From the IMG/VR virus record IMGVR_UViG_3300017917_000908, positions 1 to 28,033 of that record: 28,033 bases of DNA. One strand, 5' to 3'. Within the stretch, counting starts at the first letter, position 1. Each line of letters starts with the position of its first letter. Made by a program: the position numbers and the translations under genes. This stretch comes from a virus. Below the pieces are notes generated by a model that had not been told where the DNA came from, ran no database searches, and saw only the letters and a program-made list of their open reading frames with translations. Of this stretch, positions 1,107 to 24,280 are shown piece by piece.

Positions 1107-1628
1107 TTAATGCTTGTGGTATATAGGAAACGTATTTACAGAGGTTTCTTCCCTGCAATGTAAACAACTAATTCGATTTTGTTTTTGTCCAAACATAGGA
1201 TTGTTAACACCTTGTTTAACTAAACTCTGTGTAACTTTGGTTTCGAGGGTATGACTTTTTCCATAAAAAGTGTTTTTATCACCTGGCCTACTTGCCCAGG
1301 GCTTGGGCTTTCCTGCTTGGAATAAACTAATTTTTTTCTTATGTGACTCGGTTAATTTTGCACCAGATGCACCTTCGCCACCATCAGTTCGATTGTATAA
1401 AATTCCAGTGCCTAAATCTTTACGGCCGTACCAACGAATTAAACGACGTTCTATTGCACAAGATCCAAGATTGGTTAAATTTTGTTCAACTAAAATAATT
1501 TTTGATTTATCTTTGGGAATAGATACACTATGCTTTCCCTTCCAAGCTCGCTTCCTTTTTCCTTTGCCGATATAATAAGGTGTGCCATCTGATCTTAGAT
1601 AGGCGTAGACATAATATTGTAAATACAT
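1107..1628 (-). CDS. GIY-YIG homing endonuclease with NUMOD3 motifs
   Basis: This 173-residue protein starts 'YVYAYLRSDGTPYYIGKGK' (residues 6-24), a GIY-YIG core with YVY and YYIG halves. The putative catalytic glutamate is E60 in 'CAIERRLIRWYG', with arginines after the YYIG strand. The middle has NUMOD3-type DNA-binding repeats ('GKPKPW', 'NTFYGKSHTLE', 'NNPMFGQKQ'). The C-terminus, 'CLHCREETSVNTFPIYHKH', looks like a small Cys2-His2 zinc-binding unit seen in phage Seg-type enzymes. It is a free-standing gene on the strand opposite its neighbours, inserted between glycosyltransferase and cyclotransferase genes, as expected for a mobile element. Its mRNA start carries a TAAATA late motif, a hairpin and a GAAGGAG ribosome binding site (see those entries). 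Confidence 0.88.
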   Translation of the reverse strand: MYLQYYVYAYLRSDGTPYYIGKGKRKRAWKGKHSVSIPKDKSKIILVEQNLTNLGSCAIERRLIRWYGRKDLGTGILYNRTDGGEGASGAKLTESHKKKISLFQAGKPKPWASRPGDKNTFYGKSHTLETKVTQSLVKQGVNNPMFGQKQNRISCLHCREETSVNTFPIYHKH

Positions 1629-2223: not shown

Positions 2224-2252
2224 AATGGCATATTAAGTAGAAAGGTAAACAA

Positions 2253-2477
2253 ATGGACGCTATCCAAAAAACAGCACTCAAAGAAACTGTCAAAACCCTT
2301 GCAGGACTTGCCGCAATCTCCATCCTGGTACCGGCTGCAATTTATCTAATTCCCTTTGAAGTACTTGGTGGTATTTTCAGCATAGGTGCCCTGTGCTTTG
2401 CTACCAAAATGATCTATGATGTCAAACTTAGTCAAGCAAAATTTGACGCAGAGTTTGGCAAAAAGGTTGACCAATAA
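2253..2477 (+). CDS. Small membrane protein, unknown function
   Basis: This 74-residue protein has a short polar N-terminus, then two hydrophobic segments (about residues 15-32 and 36-53) separated by 'PFEVLGG', and a charged C-terminal tail ending 'FGKKVDQ'. It is therefore probably a two-pass inner-membrane protein with a short loop. No family is recognised. It has its own promoter and an AAAGG ribosome binding site 7 bases before the ATG. Its last codons hold the -35 box of the next promoter, so the reading frame and the downstream promoter share sequence. Small early membrane proteins of T4-like phages often modify host membrane functions; there is no direct evidence for a role here. Confidence 0.7.
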   Translation: MDAIQKTALKETVKTLAGLAAISILVPAAIYLIPFEVLGGIFSIGALCFATKMIYDVKLSQAKFDAEFGKKVDQ

Positions 2478-2495
2478 ATCAATATCAGCTATAAT
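2467..2495 (+). promoter_or_regulatory. Sigma70-type early promoter for the AAA+ ATPase gene
   Basis: TTGACC (2467-2472), inside the final codons of the membrane-protein gene, then a 17 bp spacer and TATAAT (2490-2495). The leader is about 25 nt and has AGGAG (2517-2521) before the ATG at 2527. Confidence 0.82.
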
Positions 2496-2526
2496 ACAAT
2501 TTTAACGCACAAAACAGGAGCCAACT

Positions 2527-3549
2527 ATGAGTGCAATTCGTGTTATTAACGGTTCGTATCGCGGTTACAAAATTCAAAACACCGAGTTTGAACTGGTGTC
2601 CGGTTACCAGACTGGCGCCAAAGGTGGGTATGTTACTGTTAAAAATGCAGGACATTTCCCCAAGTTTGGCAGTACGATCCGAATCCTTGTTGACAACATC
2701 TCAGACATCGAGTATACTAACGGCATGACACAAGACAACACCGTAAAATTTGAACAGCCCGCAACGCCTGCAGAAACTGACGAACAAGCAATGGATCGTA
2801 TCCGCGAGCGTTTTGATATCCTGCATGAGATGACAAAGGCCACAGTGTCAGGCGACATTCGTGCTATGATTGTGTCAGGCCCTCCTGGCGTTGGTAAATC
2901 GTTTGGTGTAGAGCAAGAGATTGAGAAGGCATGTTTGTTTGACAAGCTCGCAGGCAAGCGTCTCCGTGCCGAAGTAGTCAAAGGCAGTGCTACACCTATC
3001 GGCCTGTACCAAACTCTGTACAAATATTCTGACACCAATTGTGTGATTGTGTTTGACGACTGTGACAGCATCTTGCTTGATGACGTGGCACTGAACTTGC
3101 TCAAGGGTGCATTGGACTCTGGTAAGAAGCGTACTATTAGCTGGTTGAGTGAGAGCTCTGCTCTGCGCCGCGAAGGCATTCCAGATCGTTTTGAGTTCAA
3201 AGGCAGTGTTATCTTTATTACCAACTTGAAGTTTGACACGATGAAGTCGCAAAAGTTGCGTGATCACTTGGACGCACTGCAATCGCGCTGTCACTACCTG
3301 GACTTGACCTTGGATACCATGCGTGACAAGGTCCTGCGCATCAAACAAATTGCCAAAGACGGTGTGTTGTTTGCAGACTACGACTTTGACGAGTGTGTAC
3401 AAGATGAGATCATCAACTTCATGCAAGACAATCAAAATCGTCTGCGTGAGATGAGCTTGCGTATGGCGCTGAAGATTGCTGACTTGCGTAAGATGTCAGT
3501 GTTGAACTGGAAGCGTTTGGCAGAAACAACTTGCATGAAGTCAGCATAA
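2527..3549 (+). CDS. Phage AAA+ family ATPase
   Basis: The 340-residue protein has a beta-rich N-terminal region (~1-70) without recognised motifs, then an AAA+ core. Walker A is 'GPPGVGKS' (118-125), Walker B is 'VIVFDDCD' (173-180), and a sensor-1 asparagine lies in 'VIFITN'. The segment 'RREGIPDRFEFKG' resembles AAA+ loops that recognise polymeric substrates. Similar stand-alone ATPases occur in T4-like phages with unsettled roles; this is not a convincing gp44 clamp loader because the SRC/arginine-finger region cannot be identified. It is expressed from a strong early promoter with an AGGAG site. Two tiny ORFs follow. A role in DNA or nucleoprotein remodelling is inference. Confidence 0.8.
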   Translation: MSAIRVINGSYRGYKIQNTEFELVSGYQTGAKGGYVTVKNAGHFPKFGSTIRILVDNISDIEYTNGMTQDNTVKFEQPATPAETDEQAMDRIRERFDILHEMTKATVSGDIRAMIVSGPPGVGKSFGVEQEIEKACLFDKLAGKRLRAEVVKGSATPIGLYQTLYKYSDTNCVIVFDDCDSILLDDVALNLLKGALDSGKKRTISWLSESSALRREGIPDRFEFKGSVIFITNLKFDTMKSQKLRDHLDALQSRCHYLDLTLDTMRDKVLRIKQIAKDGVLFADYDFDECVQDEIINFMQDNQNRLREMSLRMALKIADLRKMSVLNWKRLAETTCMKSA

Positions 3550-3550
3550 C

Positions 3551-3643
3551 ATGGCTTGGTGGGGTGTCATACTGTTAATCTTTGTAGGGCACCCCGGTCT
3601 TGCAGTATTTCTAGCATTCTTAATTTTGGTTTTTGGAGATTGA
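3551..3643 (+). CDS. Tiny hydrophobic peptide (30 residues), tentative
   Basis: An ATG one base after the ATPase stop opens a 30-codon frame encoding 'MAWWGVILLIFVG' and a second hydrophobic run ending 'LILVFGD'. Nearly the whole peptide could span a membrane. There is no clear ribosome binding site, but the position immediately downstream of the ATPase gene would allow reinitiation. It is too short to assign and could be chance. Confidence 0.35.
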   Translation: MAWWGVILLIFVGHPGLAVFLAFLILVFGD

Positions 3644-3644
3644 T

Positions 3645-3761
3645 ATGTTTGAAATTTGGGATGGTGATTTGTATCTGTACAATGTGGATACACCGTACGA
3701 AGCAGACGAAGCACGTGAAGCAGGCTTTACAGTAAAGAGCCTGGAATATTACGGAGCATAA
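3645..3761 (+). CDS. Small acidic protein (38 residues), unknown function
   Basis: The ATG follows the upstream tiny ORF stop by one base and is preceded by GGAG (3634-3637). The product, starting 'MFEIWDGDLYLYNVDT' and ending 'SLEYYGA', is acidic and rich in aromatics, with normal amino-acid use rather than random composition. It resembles no family known to me. Gene order (ATPase, membrane peptide, acidic peptide, then terminator) suggests one early transcript. Confidence 0.5.
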   Translation: MFEIWDGDLYLYNVDTPYEADEAREAGFTVKSLEYYGA

Positions 3762-3865
3762 GATTACCCCGCAGTGTGCGTAAGGGCAATGTCAATAAGA
3801 CCCTTCCGATAAACAGTTTTCCTTTCCCCTGGGCAACAACGGTTGGCTCCGGCCCAGGTTTTACA
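3762..3865 (+). other. Structured non-coding stretch, possible small RNA or 3' UTR
   Basis: There is no credible ORF here. It holds AAGGG (3782-3786) facing CCCTT (3801-3805), and CCTGGGC (3828-3834) facing GCCCAGG (3852-3858). The terminator hairpin follows directly, so the region has the form of two stem-loops plus a terminator. It may be a trailer of the ATPase transcript or a separate small RNA; no promoter was found inside it. Confidence 0.3.
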
Positions 3866-3891
3866 CAGGCACTTCGGTGCCTGTTTTTTTT
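3866..3891 (+). terminator. Rho-independent terminator with UUCG tetraloop
   Basis: The 7-bp stem CAGGCAC / GTGCCTG (3866-3872 with 3877-3883) is closed by TTCG and followed by eight T residues (3884-3891). The next promoter's -35 box overlaps the end of the T-run. Confidence 0.9.
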
Positions 3892-3918
3892 GACTTTTTG
3901 TTGCGGTAAGTATATACT
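3890..3918 (+). promoter_or_regulatory. Sigma70-type early promoter, leaderless
   Basis: TTGACT (3890-3895), 17 bp spacer, TATACT (3913-3918). Six bases separate the -10 box from the ATG at 3925, so the expected +1 is the start codon A. The -35 box shares bases with the terminator T-run. Confidence 0.78.
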
Positions 3919-3924
3919 AGTACC

Positions 3925-4788
3925 ATGCCCCAACACATGTTTATCCGTCTGGGACAAGACGGAGACCTCACATTGAAATTTCAAATACGTTCTAGCCCCG
4001 TTGCCGAGCTCTGGGTAGAACGCATGTTGGCTCGAACCTCGTGGCAGTTAGACCACCCCAATAGATTCTATGGTTTTGGCACTCCAGCACAAGAGCGTGA
4101 CCGTGCTATTGCAGACATTCAACAATGCATTGCCATAATAAACGCACATGAGCCAATCATACATCGTCAGTTTGAATACACACAAGACTGTCTTAATTAC
4201 TTGCACAGTATATTTGAACGTTATCACGGATTGTTAGATCAGCAAAACACACCTTATTGGCAACAGGCTCCAGAACCAGTAAAAAAGGCACTCGCCGAAC
4301 TTAACCTTGCAGTGCATCGATGCGAGTCAGTTGCGGCAGGCGCCCACCCGAGATTTGTTTGCACCTGGTACGGCATGCCCAAGACGCATACATTAGATCC
4401 AGAGCTACAGGGTCGGTACGGAGATTGGCGTATTAAATTTGGCACAGTGTATCTCAATTACTGCGAAATAGGTAAAACAGTAGAAGATCTAGCACACGAT
4501 AACGATAAGTACATAGGTGATGATGCATTTCGTCCATTCAGTCACTACAGCGCCGACTTCAATGTGTCCTTTTACAATCGTGACCTAAGTGAAATTTATG
4601 GGTCAGTGCAAAACTATATTGACCAACATAGAGATTTTTTTGTTGCACACAACATCACAAGTGTGTATAATATAAAGGCGCAACCCTTGCGCTTTCCTGT
4701 TGCTGAATTGGTCTATGCTGGCAACAGAGAAGAATTACTATTCCAAATAGCACGCCGACAGTGGGTGCATGAAGTTATATTAGAATGA
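3925..4788 (+). CDS. Conserved-looking phage protein of unknown function
   Basis: This 287-residue soluble protein has no recognised domain. It has a helical N-terminal half (e.g. 'ERDRAIADIQQCIAIINAHE', ~57-76, and 'PVKKALAELNLAVHRCESVA') and a mixed C-terminal half with 'FGTVYLNYCEIGKTVEDLAH' and several His, Asp and aromatic residues ('HYSADFNVSFYNRDL'). It starts at the predicted +1 of its own promoter, so it looks leaderless. It overlaps the UvsW-like helicase gene by 4 bp (ATGA), which couples the two and points to a role in replication or recombination; that is inference from context only. Confidence 0.75.
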   Translation: MPQHMFIRLGQDGDLTLKFQIRSSPVAELWVERMLARTSWQLDHPNRFYGFGTPAQERDRAIADIQQCIAIINAHEPIIHRQFEYTQDCLNYLHSIFERYHGLLDQQNTPYWQQAPEPVKKALAELNLAVHRCESVAAGAHPRFVCTWYGMPKTHTLDPELQGRYGDWRIKFGTVYLNYCEIGKTVEDLAHDNDKYIGDDAFRPFSHYSADFNVSFYNRDLSEIYGSVQNYIDQHRDFFVAHNITSVYNIKAQPLRFPVAELVYAGNREELLFQIARRQWVHEVILE

Positions 4789-7712: not shown

Positions 7713-7966
7713 TGGGCACACTTACTCCTGGCGCTACTTACATTTACGAACGTGCCGACGGCATCGTGTATGCTCGAGAGTTTGGCAAAACTGAACGGCA
7801 AGTGGTTGGTTATGAATCTGGCAAAGATTATGATCTCAATGGTGCTAACAAACGCATGTTGAGTGAACTCAACGAAGTTGTTCGAATGTGTGAGACGGAT
7901 CCAGCAATGAAAGAGATGTTGGATCAGTTATTTGTAATGTATAATTTAAAGAAAACGCATGAGTAA
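7712..7966 (+). CDS. Small conserved-looking phage protein, unknown function
   Basis: The 84-residue protein begins 'MGTLTPGATYIYERADGIVY' and ends in a helical, charged tail ('LSELNEVVRMCETDPAMKEM'). The N-terminal block looks beta-structured and conserved. There is no membrane segment. It is translationally coupled to the cupin gene (TAATG) and overlaps the radical SAM gene by 8 bp, so it could be an accessory partner of that enzyme. No function can be assigned. Confidence 0.72.
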   Translation: MGTLTPGATYIYERADGIVYAREFGKTERQVVGYESGKDYDLNGANKRMLSELNEVVRMCETDPAMKEMLDQLFVMYNLKKTHE

Positions 7967-9020
7967 CGTGTACTGCAAAGCACCTTGGGTCAGTGTGAGC
8001 TATATGCCTGGCGGCAAGTATTCACCTTGCTGTGCCTGGGGCGGTGGAGGATTTGACAGTCAACAACAAATGACAGACACAGTTGGTGGTGCATTTTTGC
8101 GTGGTGAAGTACCTAAAGAATGCAAAAATAGTTGCGCCCCTGATCGCAGTGGCTGGCGAGATATGTTTGCTAGATTTGAAACAGACTGTCAAACACATCA
8201 AATACAATTTTTAGATTTCCGTAACAACAATCTCTGCAACATGAAATGTCGTAGTTGTGGCCCGGGCTTCAGTACATCTTGGGCCAGCGAAGCAGGACAA
8301 AAAGAAATTGTGCTACACGAAGCCACTCCCATTGATGACATGGATCTAAGTCAGTGCCAAGAAGTGTATTTTGCTGGCGGCGAACCTTTGTTGAATCCAC
8401 AACACTATCAAGTGTTGGAAAAGCTCATTGCACAAGGAAGTAATCCTGGATTGATGTACAGCACCAACATGAGTGTGCTGGGTTACAAAAACAAACGTGT
8501 GCAAGACTTGTGGCCCTACTTTCGACGCATCAATGTTCATGCCAGTATTGATGCTGTGGGCGCTTATGCTGAAATTGTACGAAGCGGTAGTGATTGGACT
8601 GCAATTGAAAGCAACTTAAAGTGGGTGTTGACACAACCCAACATCAGTGTGCGTGTGGCCACAGTCATCAGTGCAATCAACATTTGGTTCTTGCCTAGTT
8701 TGTTAGAATACTTTGATTGGTTGGCAGCACCGCATGCATTCGAACCTGTGTTGGCCAATGTGGACAGTGTAATTGGTCTAGGATCAATACCTACACATTT
8801 TAGACCACCCTTGATTGAAATGCTAGAGCAATGCAGATTTTCTGAGCACATCAACATACGTGGTGCCATTGACGCACTCCGCAATCAACAGTATAATAAA
8901 GCACACTGGCATCAATTTCTAGCACAGCAATTGATACAAGACAACTACAGAAACGAAAAATGGTTTGACAGCATGCCTATAAAACACCAAATCTACAGAG
9001 AGGTATTGCAAATTGGATAA
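7959..9020 (+). CDS. Radical SAM protein with Cys-rich N-terminal (twitch/SPASM-like) region
   Basis: In this 353-residue protein the canonical 4Fe-4S motif CxxxCxxC is C93, C97 and C100 ('NLCNMKCRSC'). 'VYFAGGEPLL' (~137-146) is the GGEP motif that contacts SAM. 'HASIDAVGAYAEIVR' matches the later 'SiDg....e..R' strand. Before the radical SAM core lies a Cys-rich segment (C6, C24, C25, C55, C59; 'KAPWVSVSYMPGGKYSPCC') that resembles a twitch/SPASM auxiliary cluster fold placed N-terminally. Such proteins occur in phages with no assigned substrate; peptide or nucleotide modification are both possible. It needs Fe-S clusters, which is relevant because iscU and iscA are carried in the same window. 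Confidence 0.88.
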   Translation: MSNVYCKAPWVSVSYMPGGKYSPCCAWGGGGFDSQQQMTDTVGGAFLRGEVPKECKNSCAPDRSGWRDMFARFETDCQTHQIQFLDFRNNNLCNMKCRSCGPGFSTSWASEAGQKEIVLHEATPIDDMDLSQCQEVYFAGGEPLLNPQHYQVLEKLIAQGSNPGLMYSTNMSVLGYKNKRVQDLWPYFRRINVHASIDAVGAYAEIVRSGSDWTAIESNLKWVLTQPNISVRVATVISAINIWFLPSLLEYFDWLAAPHAFEPVLANVDSVIGLGSIPTHFRPPLIEMLEQCRFSEHINIRGAIDALRNQQYNKAHWHQFLAQQLIQDNYRNEKWFDSMPIKHQIYREVLQIG

Positions 9021-13253: not shown

Positions 13254-14243
13254 ATGCTTGATATCCTTGCTTACTTGCCCGCAAAAAGAAAACGTAGCCC
13301 AAATGGTTGGCTGAGTTTCAACGCGGTGTGTTGTCCACACAATGGCGAAAGCTCTGACACAAGGCAACGAGGCGGACTCAAAGTTACTGATCAAGGTTGG
13401 AGCTATCACTGTTTCAACTGTTCATACACTGCTAGTTTTGTATTAGGTAGAACTCTGGGATTCAAAGTTCGACGACTGCTTGGTTGGATGGGTGTACCTG
13501 ATTCCGACATAGACATGTTGAATCTAGAAAGTATGCGACATCGTAACATACATGGTATACTGGAAGATCGACAAAAGACCTTCAATATTTTATCAAACAT
13601 TGCATTTGAAGAATTTGATGACTTACCACCATTCTCAGAAGTAGTAACACCAGAATTAAAACATCATTGGGATTATTTGCGTTCAAGAAAAGTACCTGAA
13701 GACTATCCTTGCATGACTGCCATACAAAATGATGGTATCCACTGGGTCAGGCCACACATCACAATACCGTTTACATACAATGACCAAGTGGTGGGTTGGA
13801 CTGCTAGATTCCTTGATAATAAAATACCCAAGTACATCAACCACACGCAGACAGGATATGTGTTTGGCACAGATTTGCAAAAGCCTGAGTGGGAGCATGT
13901 GTTGGTCATGGAAGGTGTAATCTGTGCGCTGAGTATATCTGGTTTGGCTGTGATGCACAACACTGTCAGTGATGCACAGGCAAGATTGATTCGCAGCCTA
14001 GGTAAACCAGTTACAGTGGTGCCCGATCAAGATCAAGCTGGACTAGAATTGATAGATCGTGCCATGGAGCTTGGCTGGGCGGTAAGTATACCTAGCTGGG
14101 GCAATCACAACAAAGATGTCAACGACTCAGTGGTAGAGCATGGCAAATTAGCAACACTGTTAATGATCATGCAGTCTAGAGAAACAAGTAAAATTAAAAT
14201 TGAAATAAGGAAAAAACAACTTGCTAAAAGAATACGGGCTTAA
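13254..14243 (+). CDS. 61: DNA primase, T4 gp61-like
   Basis: The 329-residue length is close to T4 gp61 (~340). The N-terminal zinc-binding site uses C26/C27, H29, C53 and C56 ('CCPHNG' and 'YHCFNCS'). The TOPRIM catalytic core follows: 'VLVMEGVICALSISG' with E220 and 'VTVVPDQDQAGLELIDRA' with D258/D260. Primases of this type make the short RNA primers for lagging-strand synthesis and work inside the gp41 helicase ring. The gene is leaderless from its promoter and overlaps the helicase gene by 23 bp, so the two are coupled. Confidence 0.92.
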   Translation: MLDILAYLPAKRKRSPNGWLSFNAVCCPHNGESSDTRQRGGLKVTDQGWSYHCFNCSYTASFVLGRTLGFKVRRLLGWMGVPDSDIDMLNLESMRHRNIHGILEDRQKTFNILSNIAFEEFDDLPPFSEVVTPELKHHWDYLRSRKVPEDYPCMTAIQNDGIHWVRPHITIPFTYNDQVVGWTARFLDNKIPKYINHTQTGYVFGTDLQKPEWEHVLVMEGVICALSISGLAVMHNTVSDAQARLIRSLGKPVTVVPDQDQAGLELIDRAMELGWAVSIPSWGNHNKDVNDSVVEHGKLATLLMIMQSRETSKIKIEIRKKQLAKRIRA

Positions 14244-15663
14244 TGTCCAACGTTTATTTCTTGAGATGATGTTAGAAGATGCACAGAGCTATGTGCGTGT
14301 TCAAAACATTTACAATCCGCAGAACTTTGACAAGAGTTTGAGACCTGCGGCTGAGTTCATCAAAGAACACAGTGACAAATACAAAACCCTGCCAGATCGC
14401 ACACAAATTGCAGCCGCATGCAACATCACGCTGGCGCATGTACCTGACTTAAATGAAGGACACTTTGAATGGTTCATGACTGAGTTTGAATCATTTACCA
14501 AACGACAAGAACTAGAACGTGCTATTTTGAAAGCCGCAGATTTACTTGAAAAAGGCGAATATGATCCAGTTGAAAAACTTATCAAGGATGCGGTACAAAT
14601 ATCACTCACTAAAGACATGGGCACAGACTACTTTGCTGATCCTAAGTCTCGCATTGAGAAATACTTCAACTCGGGTGGACAAGTAAGCACAGGCTGGCCG
14701 CAACTGGATAGACTGTTGTATGGTGGGTTTAGTCGTGGTGAACTAAACATCTTTGCAGGTGGATCAGGTTCAGGTAAGTCACTTGTGATGATGAACATTG
14801 CACTAAACTGGTTGCAACAAGGACTCAGCGGTGTTTACATTACACTAGAACTTTCAGAAGAACTTACTAGTTTGCGTACTGATGCTATGTTGACAAACAT
14901 GAGTACCAAAGACATCCGCCGAGACGTAGATACAACAGAACTCAAAGTCAAGATGGTTGCTAAAAAGAGTGGCAACTATCAAGTCAAGGGTTTGCCAGCA
15001 CAGAGCAACATCAACGACATTCGTGCTTATTTGAAAGAATATCAAATTCAAACAGGCAAGAAGGTAGATTTTGTTATGATTGACTACTTGGACTTGCTGA
15101 TGCCTGTCAGCGCCAAGGTCAGCCCCAATGATTTGTTTGTCAAAGACAAGTATGTTTCAGAAGAACTCCGTAATTTAGCCAAAGAGCTAGGAATCCTAAT
15201 GGTAACTGCATCGCAGTTAAACAGATCCGCTGTGGAAGAGATTGAGTTTGACCACTCGCACATCTCGGGTGGTATTTCAAAGATCAACACAGCAGATAAC
15301 GTGTTTGGTATCTTTACAAGTCGCTCAATGAAAGAAAAGGGCAAGTATCAGATCCAGTGTATGAAGTCACGAAGCTCGACCGGCGTTGGTCAAAAAATTG
15401 ATTTGGAGTACAACATTGAAACTATGCGCATTACTGATGAAGGCGGGGACGAAGGAACTGGATACAATAGACCACAAAGTTCCATCATGGATTCAATCAA
15501 AGCCAAAAGCCAAGTCAAGGCTGCTGACACCAGTGACGAAGGAACTGCTCCAAAATGGGAACGTGCAACAGGAACCCCTGCGTGGGAGCAGGGGCCTAAG
15601 ATAACAGCAGATGTTCAAAGTGCAAAACTAAAACAACTGCTGGGTCAGATCAAATCTAATTAG
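14221..15663 (+). CDS. 41: Replicative DnaB-family helicase, T4 gp41-like
   Basis: The 480-residue protein starts at TTG (14221), preceded by AAGGA (14207-14211); no ATG occurs until 14266 and an in-frame later start would remove the conserved N-terminus. Residues 1-110 form the N-terminal helical domain that packs in the hexamer. The RecA-like core has Walker A 'GGSGSGKS' (180-187), 'GVYITLELSEE' (motif 1a), Walker B 'VDFVMIDYLDLL', and 'ILMVTASQLNRSA' (motif 3). The C-terminus is a long acidic, low-complexity tail. It unwinds the fork and interacts with the primase encoded directly upstream. It ends 4 bp inside the convergent fibre gene. Confidence 0.94.
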   Translation: MLKEYGLNVQRLFLEMMLEDAQSYVRVQNIYNPQNFDKSLRPAAEFIKEHSDKYKTLPDRTQIAAACNITLAHVPDLNEGHFEWFMTEFESFTKRQELERAILKAADLLEKGEYDPVEKLIKDAVQISLTKDMGTDYFADPKSRIEKYFNSGGQVSTGWPQLDRLLYGGFSRGELNIFAGGSGSGKSLVMMNIALNWLQQGLSGVYITLELSEELTSLRTDAMLTNMSTKDIRRDVDTTELKVKMVAKKSGNYQVKGLPAQSNINDIRAYLKEYQIQTGKKVDFVMIDYLDLLMPVSAKVSPNDLFVKDKYVSEELRNLAKELGILMVTASQLNRSAVEEIEFDHSHISGGISKINTADNVFGIFTSRSMKEKGKYQIQCMKSRSSTGVGQKIDLEYNIETMRITDEGGDEGTGYNRPQSSIMDSIKAKSQVKAADTSDEGTAPKWERATGTPAWEQGPKITADVQSAKLKQLLGQIKSN

Positions 15664-17273: not shown

Positions 17274-17304
17274 TTATAATCCTTGTGCTATAATGCATAC
17301 TAGA

Positions 17305-17310: not shown

Positions 17311-17328
17311 TTGCAACCGCCGATCCGC

Positions 17329-17334
17329 TAAATA
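17329..17334 (+). promoter_or_regulatory. Late-type promoter motif TAAATA
   Basis: GCTAAATAGT lies 19 bp before the ATG at 17354. AAAGG (17339-17343) would be the ribosome binding site. It opens the plus-strand late block. Confidence 0.45.
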
Positions 17335-17353: not shown

Positions 17354-17602
17354 ATGCAGAAAAAGACCCGGAGTATATTAGAAGAACTAGACTCAATGTA
17401 TGTAGAGCGAGATCGCCGCCTCTTAATTGAAAACCGTGCTAGTAATGTCATTGCTAGCGCCATACGTCTAGTTGAACAAATAGAAGCTGAGTACTCAGCA
17501 GAACAAGCTGAAAATCTCACACGTAAACTGCTGAATGCAATACGTACCAAGGATGCTGGTAAGTTTTCTAGGTCAGTAAGGAGAACCCATGCAGATTCAT
17601 GA
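17354..17602 (+). CDS. Small helical, highly charged protein, possible prohead core or internal protein
   Basis: The 82-residue protein is almost entirely helical and charged ('SILEELDSMYVERDRRLLIE', 'LVEQIEAEYSAEQAENLTRK'), so a coiled coil or core scaffold is likely. Length and composition recall the small prohead core proteins of T4 (gp67/gp68), but I see no firm motif. It is the first gene of the late block and overlaps the next gene by 14 bp. I therefore call it a probable late virion or scaffold protein. Confidence 0.6.
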   Translation: MQKKTRSILEELDSMYVERDRRLLIENRASNVIASAIRLVEQIEAEYSAEQAENLTRKLLNAIRTKDAGKFSRSVRRTHADS

Positions 17603-18353
17603 ACTAACACGTCGACGTCCCATTAAAGAAGCCAGCACCGGAGCCCTGGGCGCTTTGGGGTCAGCAGTGGCTTCAGCGGCCAGCAATGCAGTTTATGGAA
17701 AAGACGTCACCAGTTCAGGCTTTGCTGGAGATGCTGTTACAGATCGCCGCCTTGGGGCTACTCAACAAAACGCAGCTTTGATCGAGCCCTTGGCCCAACA
17801 ACTCAGCACAGGCTGGGCACAAACAGTTGCGGCCGAACTCAAAGACGCTGTTGATGCTGATGGTGCAGGTGGCGCTACCAGTGTTACTCAACTAGATGCA
17901 ACCAGTCAAAACGGACTCAAAGCTAAATTGGCAACTATGGTCAACAAAATGGTGTACCCACAAGGCAGCGGCAACTACACCAGTTTACCAGCCACAGCAG
18001 GCATGACCCCAGAAGACAAAGCCGAAGCAGAAAACGCAGTCAAGGCCATTGACATGGGCACTGAAGCAGTGTGGCGCACAACAGTAAGTCCTACACCAGA
18101 TACCAAAGCCACCATGGCAGCATTTACAGCCATGGTCCGAGATGGCATTTTGCCTGCACAGAACATTGCACGATTTGTACTTGGCCAACGCAGCAAAACT
18201 GGTGCAGCCGGGATGCCAGTCAGTGGCGCAGCAAAACAAGCCGCAACAGACATGGATCTTGATCAAGCAGAAATCAAGGCCATGCAAGCATACTTTGCTA
18301 AAAATGGCGGCGTACTGACTCCTGCTGCAAAAGAATTGTTTGGTTTAAAATGA
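17589..18353 (+). CDS. Ala-rich late protein with capsid-targeting-like N-terminus
   Basis: The 254-residue protein begins 'MQIHELTRRRPIKEA'. The first six residues fit the pattern M-x-(I/L)-x-E-(L/F) shared with two other proteins of the block and resemble T4 capsid-targeting sequences, which the prohead protease cuts after Glu in (I/L)xE. The body is rich in Ala, Gly, Thr and Lys with predicted helices ('KAEAENAVKAIDMGTEAVWR', 'MDLDQAEIKAMQAYFAKNGG'). No enzyme motif is seen. It overlaps the nucleotidyltransferase-ligase gene by 4 bp, so the two products are probably made together and could be packaged or assembled together. Confidence 0.65.
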   Translation: MQIHELTRRRPIKEASTGALGALGSAVASAASNAVYGKDVTSSGFAGDAVTDRRLGATQQNAALIEPLAQQLSTGWAQTVAAELKDAVDADGAGGATSVTQLDATSQNGLKAKLATMVNKMVYPQGSGNYTSLPATAGMTPEDKAEAENAVKAIDMGTEAVWRTTVSPTPDTKATMAAFTAMVRDGILPAQNIARFVLGQRSKTGAAGMPVSGAAKQAATDMDLDQAEIKAMQAYFAKNGGVLTPAAKELFGLK

Positions 18354-20254
18354 AATATCTACTAGAAGGCGGCAACGTATTTAAAGACAAGCAAGGCAAC
18401 CCCTTGACACAGCGTATCAATCAAGCTGATGTGCCTGGCACCATCCAATGGCTAGAAGCAGTGTTGGGCATGGACTTGACTGGCGAAGATGATCCTAGAA
18501 CTGGTTATCCAAGCCGTTGGTTAGGCAGCACAGGTAAGAACCCCACATCTGGTGACTTGGATATTGCCATTGACATCAACGAAGCCAGCAAAGAAGATAT
18601 TGCTGCCAAGCTCACACAGTTTGTGACCAGCCAAGGCCAGGATCCCAGAGAGTGGGTGGCAAAAAAGGGCGAAGTGCATTTCCGCACTCCCATCAATGGC
18701 GATCCCAATCAAGGCTTTGTGCAAACAGACTTTATGTTTTTCCCTAATTTAGATTGGGGACAGTTTTTCTACAGTGGCGGCATTGACTCAAATTACAAAG
18801 GCGCAAACCGCAACATTTTGATGAGTTCAATTGCCAAGAGCCTGGGACTCAAAGTGGGTGCCAACGGTGTGTTCAGCAGAGCCACAAATGAATTGTTGAG
18901 CTTGGATCCTGATCAAACAGCAGAGTGGTTGTTGGGTGCAGGCAATGATCGTAGCAGTTTGAAAAACGTTGAAACAATCTATCAAACCATTGCCAACGAC
19001 AAAGACCGTGATGCCAAGCTAAATGACTTCCGTGAATACCTCAAACGTGAAGGTCTAGCGGAGCCACAAGTCAACGTAAAAGAAAATGACGTTAGCTTCT
19101 TGGCACGACTACGTGATCGTATTGTGAATCAAGGCTATGTTGCCTTGGTTGAAGCCGAAGAAGCTGGTGTTGGCGGTAGAGCCAAGGGCATTGAACACTT
19201 GGAAGATCTTGTGTTTCGTCGTGGCACACAGGGCATCAAGGATGCCCTGGAAATTGTCAAGCATGCCACAGCAGAACCTCGAACAGTCACAGCCAAATGG
19301 GACGGCAAACCTGCTGTGATATTTGGACGTAAACCCAGCACTGGTGAGTTTGTGCTCACAGATGGGTCGGGCTTTGAAGCCAAGGGCTATGATGGCCTGG
19401 CCACAAGTCCAAGAATGATGGCTGATATACAGAGCAAACGTTCGGGCGATAGAACTGAACTTATCAATATCTATGCCAAACTGTTCCCTGTGTTGGAAGC
19501 AGCTTTGCCTGCAGGTTTTAGAGGCTACGTCAAAGGCGATTTGCTATACATGCAAACTCCTCCAGTGGTTGCTGGCAACTATGTGTTCAAGCCCAACACA
19601 ATTGAATACAAAATACCTGCCAAATCTGCCCTGGGGCAACGCATTGGCAACAGTGAAATTGGTGTTGCTGTGCATTCAATGTATGCTGATCGTGGTGATG
19701 CACGTCAGCCCTTGACCGGTGTGACATTTAATGAAGTACCAGGATTGTTGTTGGAAAAACCTGCTAGCCCTAGAGCACTGCAAACTGAAACCAATGCTGA
19801 AAAACGCTTGCGACAGTTGATCAAAACTCAAGGCAAAAATATCAACACACTGTTTAATCCTGCAGAATTACGTGCTCACAAGATCACAGACTTGGCCAAG
19901 TTGTGCGTGGACTTTATCAACACCAAAGTTGGTGCTCCACTAAACGGGGCAACATTGCTACCTGAGTTTGGCACCTGGTTACAGAGCAAAGTAACTCCCA
20001 GCAAGTTCAACAACATTGTAGAATACCTGCGTAGCCCAACATCCAACACAGAAGCCATTGCTGCGGCTTTTGAAGCGTTTATTATCCTGCATGATCTCAA
20101 GATGCATTTGTTGCGCCAAGCCGATACAGAACATCCTGGGCAAGAAGGCTGGGTCATGGCCACCCCTGCAGGCTATGCAAAAGCAGTGAATCGCTTTGAT
20201 CCCAATGCATTTGCAGCTCAAAATAGATTGCAAAACAACCCTCAACAGGCGTAA
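18350..20254 (+). CDS. Fusion of a Pol-beta-type nucleotidyltransferase and a KxDG ligase-like domain
   Basis: In the 634-residue protein residues ~50-135 form a nucleotidyltransferase site: 'LGSTGKNPTSGDLDIAID' with G59-S60 and metal-binding D69/D71, and the third acid D127 in 'FVQTDFMFF'. Residues ~285-440 resemble the adenylation domain of ATP-dependent DNA/RNA ligases: motif I 'TAKWDGKPAVIFG' with candidate lysine K316, a motif III-like 'YVKGDLLYM' (D397 where Glu is usual), and a motif IV-like 'IEYKIP' (E419). The last ~170 residues are helical. The ligase-like part matches a family of uncharacterised phage proteins (I believe DUF6267). One chain could thus add nucleotides and seal ends, as in RNA or DNA end repair; this is inference. 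It starts 'MKYLLEGG', possibly a prohead-protease site, and lies in the late block. Confidence 0.7.
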   Translation: MKYLLEGGNVFKDKQGNPLTQRINQADVPGTIQWLEAVLGMDLTGEDDPRTGYPSRWLGSTGKNPTSGDLDIAIDINEASKEDIAAKLTQFVTSQGQDPREWVAKKGEVHFRTPINGDPNQGFVQTDFMFFPNLDWGQFFYSGGIDSNYKGANRNILMSSIAKSLGLKVGANGVFSRATNELLSLDPDQTAEWLLGAGNDRSSLKNVETIYQTIANDKDRDAKLNDFREYLKREGLAEPQVNVKENDVSFLARLRDRIVNQGYVALVEAEEAGVGGRAKGIEHLEDLVFRRGTQGIKDALEIVKHATAEPRTVTAKWDGKPAVIFGRKPSTGEFVLTDGSGFEAKGYDGLATSPRMMADIQSKRSGDRTELINIYAKLFPVLEAALPAGFRGYVKGDLLYMQTPPVVAGNYVFKPNTIEYKIPAKSALGQRIGNSEIGVAVHSMYADRGDARQPLTGVTFNEVPGLLLEKPASPRALQTETNAEKRLRQLIKTQGKNINTLFNPAELRAHKITDLAKLCVDFINTKVGAPLNGATLLPEFGTWLQSKVTPSKFNNIVEYLRSPTSNTEAIAAAFEAFIILHDLKMHLLRQADTEHPGQEGWVMATPAGYAKAVNRFDPNAFAAQNRLQNNPQQA

Positions 20255-23589: not shown

Positions 23590-23976
23590 ATGGCATATTC
23601 AGATAAAGTTATTGATCACTATGAAAATCCTCGCAATGTAGGTAGCTTTGCCAAGGACGACGAAGATGTCGGGACTGGCATGGTTGGTGCGCCGGCCTGC
23701 GGCGATGTTATGAAACTGCAAATAAAGGTGCAAGATGGTATCATCACGGACGCAAGATTCAAAACATACGGATGCGGCAGTGCAATTGCCTCCAGTTCTC
23801 TCGTTACCGAGTGGGTTAAAGGACGAACGCTTGACGAAGCGGCAGCTCTTAAAAATTCAGAGATTGCTGAAGAACTCGCATTGCCACCAGTCAAGATTCA
23901 TTGTTCTATTCTTGCTGAAGATGCTATAAAAGCCGCTGTAGAGGACTACAGAAAGAAGCATGATCTCGTTAACTGA
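23590..23976 (+). CDS. iscU: IscU, Fe-S cluster assembly scaffold
   Basis: The 128-residue protein follows E. coli IscU almost residue for residue. The three cluster-ligating cysteines are present in '[11 protein letters not shown]', '[16 protein letters not shown]' and '[15 protein letters not shown]', with the Asp after the first Cys and the His before the third. 'LPPVK', the recognition site for the HscA chaperone, is intact. IscU receives sulfur from the cysteine desulfurase IscS and iron, builds a 2Fe-2S cluster and passes it on with HscA/HscB. None of IscS, HscA, HscB or ferredoxin is present nearby, so the phage protein must use the host machinery. High identity with bacterial IscU suggests recent acquisition from a proteobacterial host. 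Its 3' end overlaps iscA by 17 bp. Confidence 0.97.
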
Positions 23977-24280
23977 TGCAGCCGCAAAGAAAATACAACA
24001 AACATTGGCTCGTAGAGGACACGGTGAGGGCATTCGCCTAGGAGTAAAAACCACAGGTTGCAGTGGACTTGCTTATGTGTTAGAATACGTAGATACGCCG
24101 CTGCCAGAAGATCAATTATTTGACTGTGCTGGCTGCAAAATCTTTGTTGACCCCAAGTCATGCGTTTACTTACAAGGCATGACTGTTGATTATGTACGCC
24201 AAGGGCTCAATGAAGGTTTTCAATTTAATAATCCCAATGAACGTGACCGCTGCGGATGCGGAGAAAGTTTTAGAGTTTGA
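23960..24280 (+). CDS. iscA: IscA, A-type Fe-S carrier
   Basis: The 106-residue protein matches E. coli IscA (107) in length and pattern. The ligands are all present: one Cys in '[15 protein letters not shown]' and the C-terminal pair in '[11 protein letters not shown]'. A-type carriers move clusters from IscU to target apo-proteins, especially 4Fe-4S proteins. It keeps the U-A order of bacterial isc operons. The ATG lies inside iscU, which is unusual for bacteria and suggests compaction for translational coupling. Two extra Cys in 'FDCAGCK' are not part of the usual motif. Possible clients in this window are the radical SAM protein or host enzymes. Confidence 0.95.

Follow-up and report, generated by a model that had tools for sequence, protein, structure and literature searches.

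Why would a phage join a nucleotide-adding domain and an end-sealing domain in a single chain? The question is raised by an open reading frame (ORF) in a 28,033-base IMG/VR virus fragment (IMGVR_UViG_3300017917_000908, here called the window) from a freshwater giant phage. The ORF encodes a 634-residue protein in which an earlier note, written from the letters of the DNA, had picked out a polymerase-beta-type site (G59-S60, D69, D71 and D127) and a ligase motif I (K316-W-D-G). All of these residues lie exactly at the positions it gave, and they are not chance occurrences because they are near-invariant in diverse homologues. Structure predictions compared in VIA and Foldseek agree with both domain identities. 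We lean towards reading the protein as a single-chain break-repair enzyme that would fill and seal nucleic-acid breaks, with DNA a more probable substrate than tRNA. The evidence computed here comprises two predicted folds, full sets of conserved motifs, versions encoded by separate genes, the gene context and a promoter motif.

An IMG/VR scan identified 582 stretches that encode relatives of the protein, and the best 80 of the 582, which were kept, are all full length with 70-81% identity. Both domains are present in 201 ORFs across all gathered loci. Residue conservation was counted in diverse homologues, 68 for the polymerase domain and 54 for the C-terminal domain.

The N-terminal polymerase-type domain

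Residues 1-262 constitute a polymerase-beta-superfamily domain with a predicted family X-type fold. The AlphaFold2 (AF2) model based on the 68 homologues has a predicted local distance difference test score (pLDDT) of 91.4 and a predicted template modelling score (pTM) of 0.81. In VIA, model residues 12-208 align with residues 139-335 of polymerase beta (Z 11.0, 3.0 Å over 164 residues), an alignment that spans the palm and thumb of the model. PolX of Thermus thermophilus is the best Foldseek hit (E 7e-5), followed by polymerases lambda and mu. The catalytic residues are kept almost throughout: G59 and D71 in 68/68 homologues, D69 and D127 in 67/68 and S60 in 63/68. Where the thumb helix begins, in a region through which family X enzymes touch the incoming nucleotide, there is a conserved R154-N155 pair (Table 1). 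Residues 1-57 are too short for the full N-terminal domain (8-kDa lyase domain / helix-hairpin-helix). One homologue is an outlier: L184 (positions 2224-4053) carries both D69N and D127N, has lost the EGGNVF leader and keeps intact ligase motifs. Judged by its sequence, its polymerase half is a naturally dead polymerase.

No Pfam or PHROGs family names the polymerase half, and its profile found no related enzyme among PDB chain sequences or in NCBIfam. Membership of the RlaP family (PF10127) was rejected, as its profile matches neither this protein nor any of five relatives (0/5), and hhalign gave a probability of 0.1 against the RlaP of Agrobacterium phage Atu_ph07. A cellular origin was also rejected: a pattern-based scan for the polymerase domain in 85k genomes, which distant relatives could escape, returned no relative.

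DUF6267 and its predicted ligase adenylation fold

The C-terminal half matches Pfam DUF6267 (PF19782; PHROG 455) over residues 281-616 with an E-value of 2.4e-29 and 103 bits against a cut-off of 27. Its relatives are chiefly hypothetical proteins from Synechococcus and Prochlorococcus phages. The cyanophage members mostly stand alone, whereas here the domain follows a polymerase domain. The libraries searched assign DUF6267 no function, and a literature search found no paper naming it.

The AF2 model of this half, built from the alignment of 54 diverse members and numbered as residue minus 258, has a pLDDT of 92.7 and a pTM of 0.88. The 50 entries listed by VIA-align consist entirely of ligases, with Z 6.3-8.7 over 164-209 residues, so that even the best is a weaker match than that of the polymerase half; among them are Naegleria RNA ligase (8.7), the fungal tRNA ligase Trl1 (7.4), REL1 and T4 Rnl1 (7.1), T4 Rnl2 (7.0) and human DNA ligase 1 (6.9). 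DNA ligases and T4 Rnl1 rank first in Foldseek, with E-values from 0.04. The ligase fold is called because every match listed by VIA is a ligase and because the motif set accompanies it. DUF6267 differs from its top structural matches, Naegleria Rnl5 and the Trl1 ligase domain, in sequence (10-14% identity), in its Asp at motif III and in a large helical insert.

Correspondence with the ligase active site is based on sequence motifs and aligned ranges. K316, D318, G319, D397, N416, Y420, H442 and G600 are invariant (54/54), and E599 and K611 are found in 53/54 members; the sole exception, L093, has lost its C-terminus and reads into the next gene. The Asp for Glu at motif III that the earlier note had remarked on is real and present in every member. 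The motif V lysine that it could not identify does exist, as K611, and motif IV is E599-G600-W-V. Both were missed because the helical insert of about 110 residues separates them from motif IIIa, which also explains why they come so late in the chain. In the model they lie on adjacent strands (342-347 and 350-354), as expected for these motifs. With motifs I, III, IV and V and a predicted adenylation fold, DUF6267 belongs, on the basis of this model, to the covalent nucleotidyltransferase (ligase/capping) superfamily. The earlier note had made its proposal depend on such a fold and on conservation of K316, D69 and D71; the predicted structure has the fold, and the three residues are kept at the counts given above.

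Sequence searches do not lead to this assignment. The PF01068 profile does not match the protein, hhalign of DUF6267 against gp30-like ligases gave nothing significant, and the DUF6267 profile linked no known ligase among PDB chain sequences and none in NCBIfam. The polymerase X-ligase design is already known; the putative ligase family used in it here is unrecognisable by sequence. In cyanophage S-PM2 (A0A0M6VVW4, BFVD) and in uncultured phages, DUF6267 is joined to a cytidylyltransferase-like domain as well.

That fusion, and the cytidylyltransferase-like neighbour of cyanophage DUF6267 more generally, would suit a ligase-superfamily nucleotidyltransferase with another target, such as capping, protein AMPylation or a step in nucleotide metabolism. 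The motif III Asp, never Glu, in all members and the absent oligonucleotide/oligosaccharide-binding (OB) domain are compatible with it too. We nevertheless consider such a target quite unlikely, as fusion or gene pairing with a family X polymerase and a place in replication clusters indicate nucleic-acid ends.

Proposed gap filling and sealing, and the likely substrate

The two halves also occur as separate genes. In L209, L211 and L213, a polymerase gene is directly followed by a separate DUF6267 gene whose leader resembles the linker of the fused protein. Atu_ph07, Sinorhizobium phage Phosso and Pseudomonas phage PA5oct have a homologous polymerase gene near a ligase-like gene; unlike in the window, these are two or more separate genes with the ligase-like partner upstream. 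The partner, which carries an EKLDG motif in Atu_ph07 and Phosso, lies immediately upstream in these two phages and three genes upstream in PA5oct, with two small genes between. The ligase-like proteins that PA5oct and Phosso encode separately also contain an EG[YV]VI...VK[IV]VD pattern. Among these partners, similarity to DUF6267 could be detected in the PA5oct protein alone and is confined to the surroundings of motifs IV-V, exactly the stretch over which hhalign pairs the two (E 8.6e-5, probability 60%); the DUF6267 profile against the Phosso protein gave nothing significant. IMG/VR scans with RlaP and the Phosso ligase yielded no usable set. Fusion together with repeated adjacency argues that the two activities work together. 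Phosso encodes the polymerase domain once more, in a diverged copy apart from its ligase-like gene (L360; PV764938.1, 118647-119138).

Filling and then sealing is the simplest reading because a family X polymerase is joined to a ligase, and there is a measured precedent. PgVPolX of Phaeocystis globosa virus combines in one chain a pol-beta/family X core at the N-terminus with an NAD-dependent DNA ligase at the C-terminus, and is active in gap repair (PMC5537341). The PgVPolX ligase is NAD-dependent and recognisable by sequence, whereas DUF6267 is not linked to known ligases by sequence search, and PgVPolX is a giant-virus enzyme while the fusion is found in a tailed phage. The fusion also shows phages coming independently to a polymerase X-ligase architecture that an algal giant virus is known to have. 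In our reading, the N-terminal half would add the missing nucleotide or nucleotides at a gap or end. The DUF6267 half would act as an ATP-dependent ligase of the covalent nucleotidyltransferase superfamily, with K316 taking up adenosine monophosphate (AMP) and passing it to the 5'-phosphate so that the nick is sealed. The likeliest substrate would be phage DNA carrying nicks or small gaps, in line with PgVPolX. The gene would be made late, and the protein may enter the capsid once its MKYLLE leader has been removed. Catalysis, DNA as the substrate, leader cleavage and packaging are what we infer from the folds, motifs and context.

DNA is favoured because of the polymerase type and because replication genes form the context of these loci, with a primase-helicase pair upstream in the window and in Phosso and the 43-uvsX-41 cluster in cyanophages. 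The window and Phosso share the helicase (48% identity) and a small gene (46% identity over 74 residues, E 1e-22) in the same order.

Several observations weigh against filling and sealing of DNA. Foldseek backs the ligase fold weakly (best E 0.04), and a Z of 8.7 is by itself close to background, as a single match near Z 8 may be. RNA ligases stand slightly above DNA ligases in the VIA comparison, in which differences below 1 Z are ties. Canonical DNA ligases need a C-terminal OB-fold with motif VI; here the chain stops one helix past motif V, and the model has no further beta domain. Relatives of the phage carry a separate gp30-like PF01068 DNA ligase, and the fusion was for this reason rejected as the replicative gp30 ligase of the phage itself. 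Finally, L184, with two of three polymerase carboxylates lost and its ligase motifs kept, implies that the polymerase step is sometimes dispensable.

Some of these points would also suit RNA repair. Here, much as RlaP and an RNA ligase would together, the polymerase half would restore the nucleotides missing from tRNA after cleavage by host anticodon nucleases, and the ligase half would reseal the tRNA. RNA ligases (Naegleria Rnl, Trl1, REL1, Rnl1/2) top the fold list, T4-type RNA ligases likewise have no OB domain, and these phages already own a DNA ligase. The separate Atu_ph07 ligase-like gene weakly matches Pfam RNA_ligase (E 0.002), and UniProt names an Atu_ph07 protein of equal length (324 residues) RNA ligase. 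The relative G001 has a cluster of 24 tRNA genes (L329-L330) that read most amino acids. The concept is also published: pairs of RlaP (PF10127), a polymerase-beta-superfamily nucleotidyltransferase, and ATP-dependent Rnl1/Rnl2 RNA ligases in jumbo phages are proposed to counter tRNA-cutting defences (PMC7824862). Unlike in those pairs, the polymerase half here resembles DNA family X enzymes and has no RlaP profile match, and Atu_ph07 carries an RlaP in addition to its separate homologue of the polymerase domain. No kinase, phosphatase or RlaP was recognised beside the fusion gene, which instead adjoins primase-helicase genes. RNA repair is in our view somewhat unlikely; with a separate DNA ligase and 24 tRNA genes in these phages, both DNA- and tRNA-repair ideas survive.

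The ligase-type family is, moreover, nearly universal among phages of ocean cyanobacteria. There DUF6267 belongs to a gene cluster of the order gp43-uvsX-gp41-mazG-...-DUF6267-cytidylyltransferase. The S-RSM4 DUF6267 query matches 368 Synechococcus, 61 'Cyanophage' and 24 Prochlorococcus phage records, and gp41 helicase matches 376 Synechococcus and 61 'Cyanophage' records, both counted by record name and not paired record by record. Searches at E 0.1 with PF01068 and PF01653, the two known DNA-ligase families, were positive in controls and related jumbo phages but found no match in any of seven such genomes, complete or nearly so, from six cyanophages and one Methylophilales phage. A 2010 review reported no g30 DNA-ligase homologue in cyanomyoviruses, left distant homologues open and deemed use of the host ligase the likelier explanation (PMC2984593). 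Cyanomyoviruses are reported to have no DNA ligase, and nearly all of them have DUF6267 in the replication cluster, which makes it a candidate for that ligase. We speculate, at long odds, that DUF6267 is a hitherto unrecognised DNA ligase family that supplies the missing replicative ligase of T4-like cyanophages (Kyanoviridae) and that, fused to a family X polymerase in freshwater jumbo phages, is delivered with the virion and mends gaps and cuts in the incoming genome before phage genes are expressed. Irrespective of that speculation, the analysis gives a family labelled only DUF6267, about as frequent as gp41 in Synechococcus and 'Cyanophage' records, a concrete, testable activity. A conserved PHROG 8438 gene lies just before DUF6267 in cyanophages (SRSM4_065 in S-RSM4; L084, 4829-5980) and could encode a partner.

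Probable late expression, possible packaging and neighbouring genes

The gene's place in a late block, as the earlier note had it, is supported by a late-type CTAAATA promoter motif 19 bp ahead of the operon's first gene. In G001, a 331-kb relative, no hexamer is more enriched than TAAATA within 80 bases upstream of genes (78 copies, 10.3-fold). The window shows no excess of the exact TATAAATA; only the core TAAATA is enriched, upstream of genes in G001. The fusion gene thus probably has late expression under a T4-like late-promoter motif. A sigma-70-type extended -10 element (TGCTATAAT) may be a second operon promoter, and the sigma-70-like GCTATAAT is enriched 15-fold upstream of genes in G001. 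That genome (L319-L335) has two upstream motif classes, TAAATA of late type and GCTATAAT / GGTTGACC of sigma-70 type, each strongly enriched.

The leader ahead of GGNVF varies in length and sequence, and Glu directly precedes GG in 65/68 homologues. The standalone homologues in Atu_ph07 and Phosso begin at MGGxAF and have no leader. Cleavage between LLE and GG would fit the T4-type prohead-protease consensus, and a gp21-type protease (PF03420) is encoded in 3/5 relatives. Relatives also encode a gp23-type capsid protein whose N-terminus contains LLE and LKE motifs. A broad [LIFVM]xE pattern shows no genome-wide enrichment at N-termini in G001; a narrower pattern, chosen after the broad one failed, is enriched 3.7-fold there (odds ratio, p 0.01). 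It is these LxE cleavage-type motifs that suggest packaging into the virion after leader cleavage.

In PA5oct, the homologue carries a structural-protein annotation derived from electrospray ionization tandem mass spectrometry (ESI-MS/MS). This was rejected as proof of packaging because the same list includes cytosolic enzymes, namely ribonucleotide reductase, thymidylate synthase, MazG and DNA ligase. That list and the position among late virion genes could also point to a chiefly structural or internal virion protein whose enzyme folds are relics. We regard this as very improbable, given near-invariant catalytic residues across wide divergence and the cytosolic enzymes on the list.

Table 1. 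Features of the two-domain gene and its surroundings, in window coordinates
Feature	Position	Strand	Basis or remark
Primase and DnaB-type helicase	13254..15663	+	Same pair in Phosso, upstream of separate ligase-like/polymerase genes
TGCTATAAT, sigma-70-type extended -10, second possible operon promoter	17286..17294	+	Sequence; GCTATAAT enrichment in G001
CTAAATA, late-promoter-type element	17328..17334	+	19 bp before the operon's first gene
Small co-transcribed gene	17354..17602	+	Same place in Phosso
Upstream gene, 254 residues	17589..18353	+	4 bp overlap with fusion gene
Two-domain protein, 634 residues	18350..20254	+	ORF; start overlaps stop of upstream gene
Leader MKYLLE, candidate capsid-targeting peptide, putative cleavage between LLE and GG	18350..18367	+	Glu before GG in 65/68
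Predicted family X-type polymerase/nucleotidyltransferase domain, palm and thumb, residues 7-262	18368..19135	+	AF2, VIA, Foldseek
GS-x6-SGD-L-D metal-binding motif, residues 59-71 (D69, D71)	18524..18562	+	Conservation
Third catalytic carboxylate D127 (QTDF)	18728..18730	+	Kept in 67/68
R154-N155, start of thumb helix	18809..18814	+	R154 68/68, N155 61/68; model helix 151-164
Inter-domain linker with second LxE-A site (LVE-A, residues 266-269)	19136..19186	+	Matches start of separate DUF6267 gene in L209, L211 and L213
DUF6267 ligase-type adenylation domain, residues 281-617	19190..20200	+	Pfam, AF2, VIA
Ligase motif I, K316-W-D-G	19295..19306	+	K, D, G 54/54
Ligase motif III, D397 (Asp for Glu)	19538..19540	+	54/54
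Ligase motif IIIa-like, N416-TIE-Y420	19595..19609	+	N, Y 54/54
Helical insert separating motif IIIa from motif IV, about residues 481-594 (~110 residues)	19790..20131	+	DSSP helices 223-336 of model
Ligase motif IV, E599-G-W-V-M	20144..20158	+	Alignment; pairs with separate PA5oct ligase-like protein
Ligase motif V lysine K611	20180..20182	+	53/54

Elsewhere in the window, a protein with NUMOD3 (1107-1628, minus strand) is probably of the homing-endonuclease type. Two overlapping genes encode an IscU/NifU-type scaffold (23590-23976; PF01592, E 7e-53) and an IscA-type carrier (23960-24280; PF01521, E 2e-21), a pair that amounts to phage-encoded iron-sulphur cluster assembly. The same phage encodes a radical S-adenosylmethionine (SAM)-like protein (7959-9020) that matches PF04055 slightly below the curated cut-off (E 4e-6).

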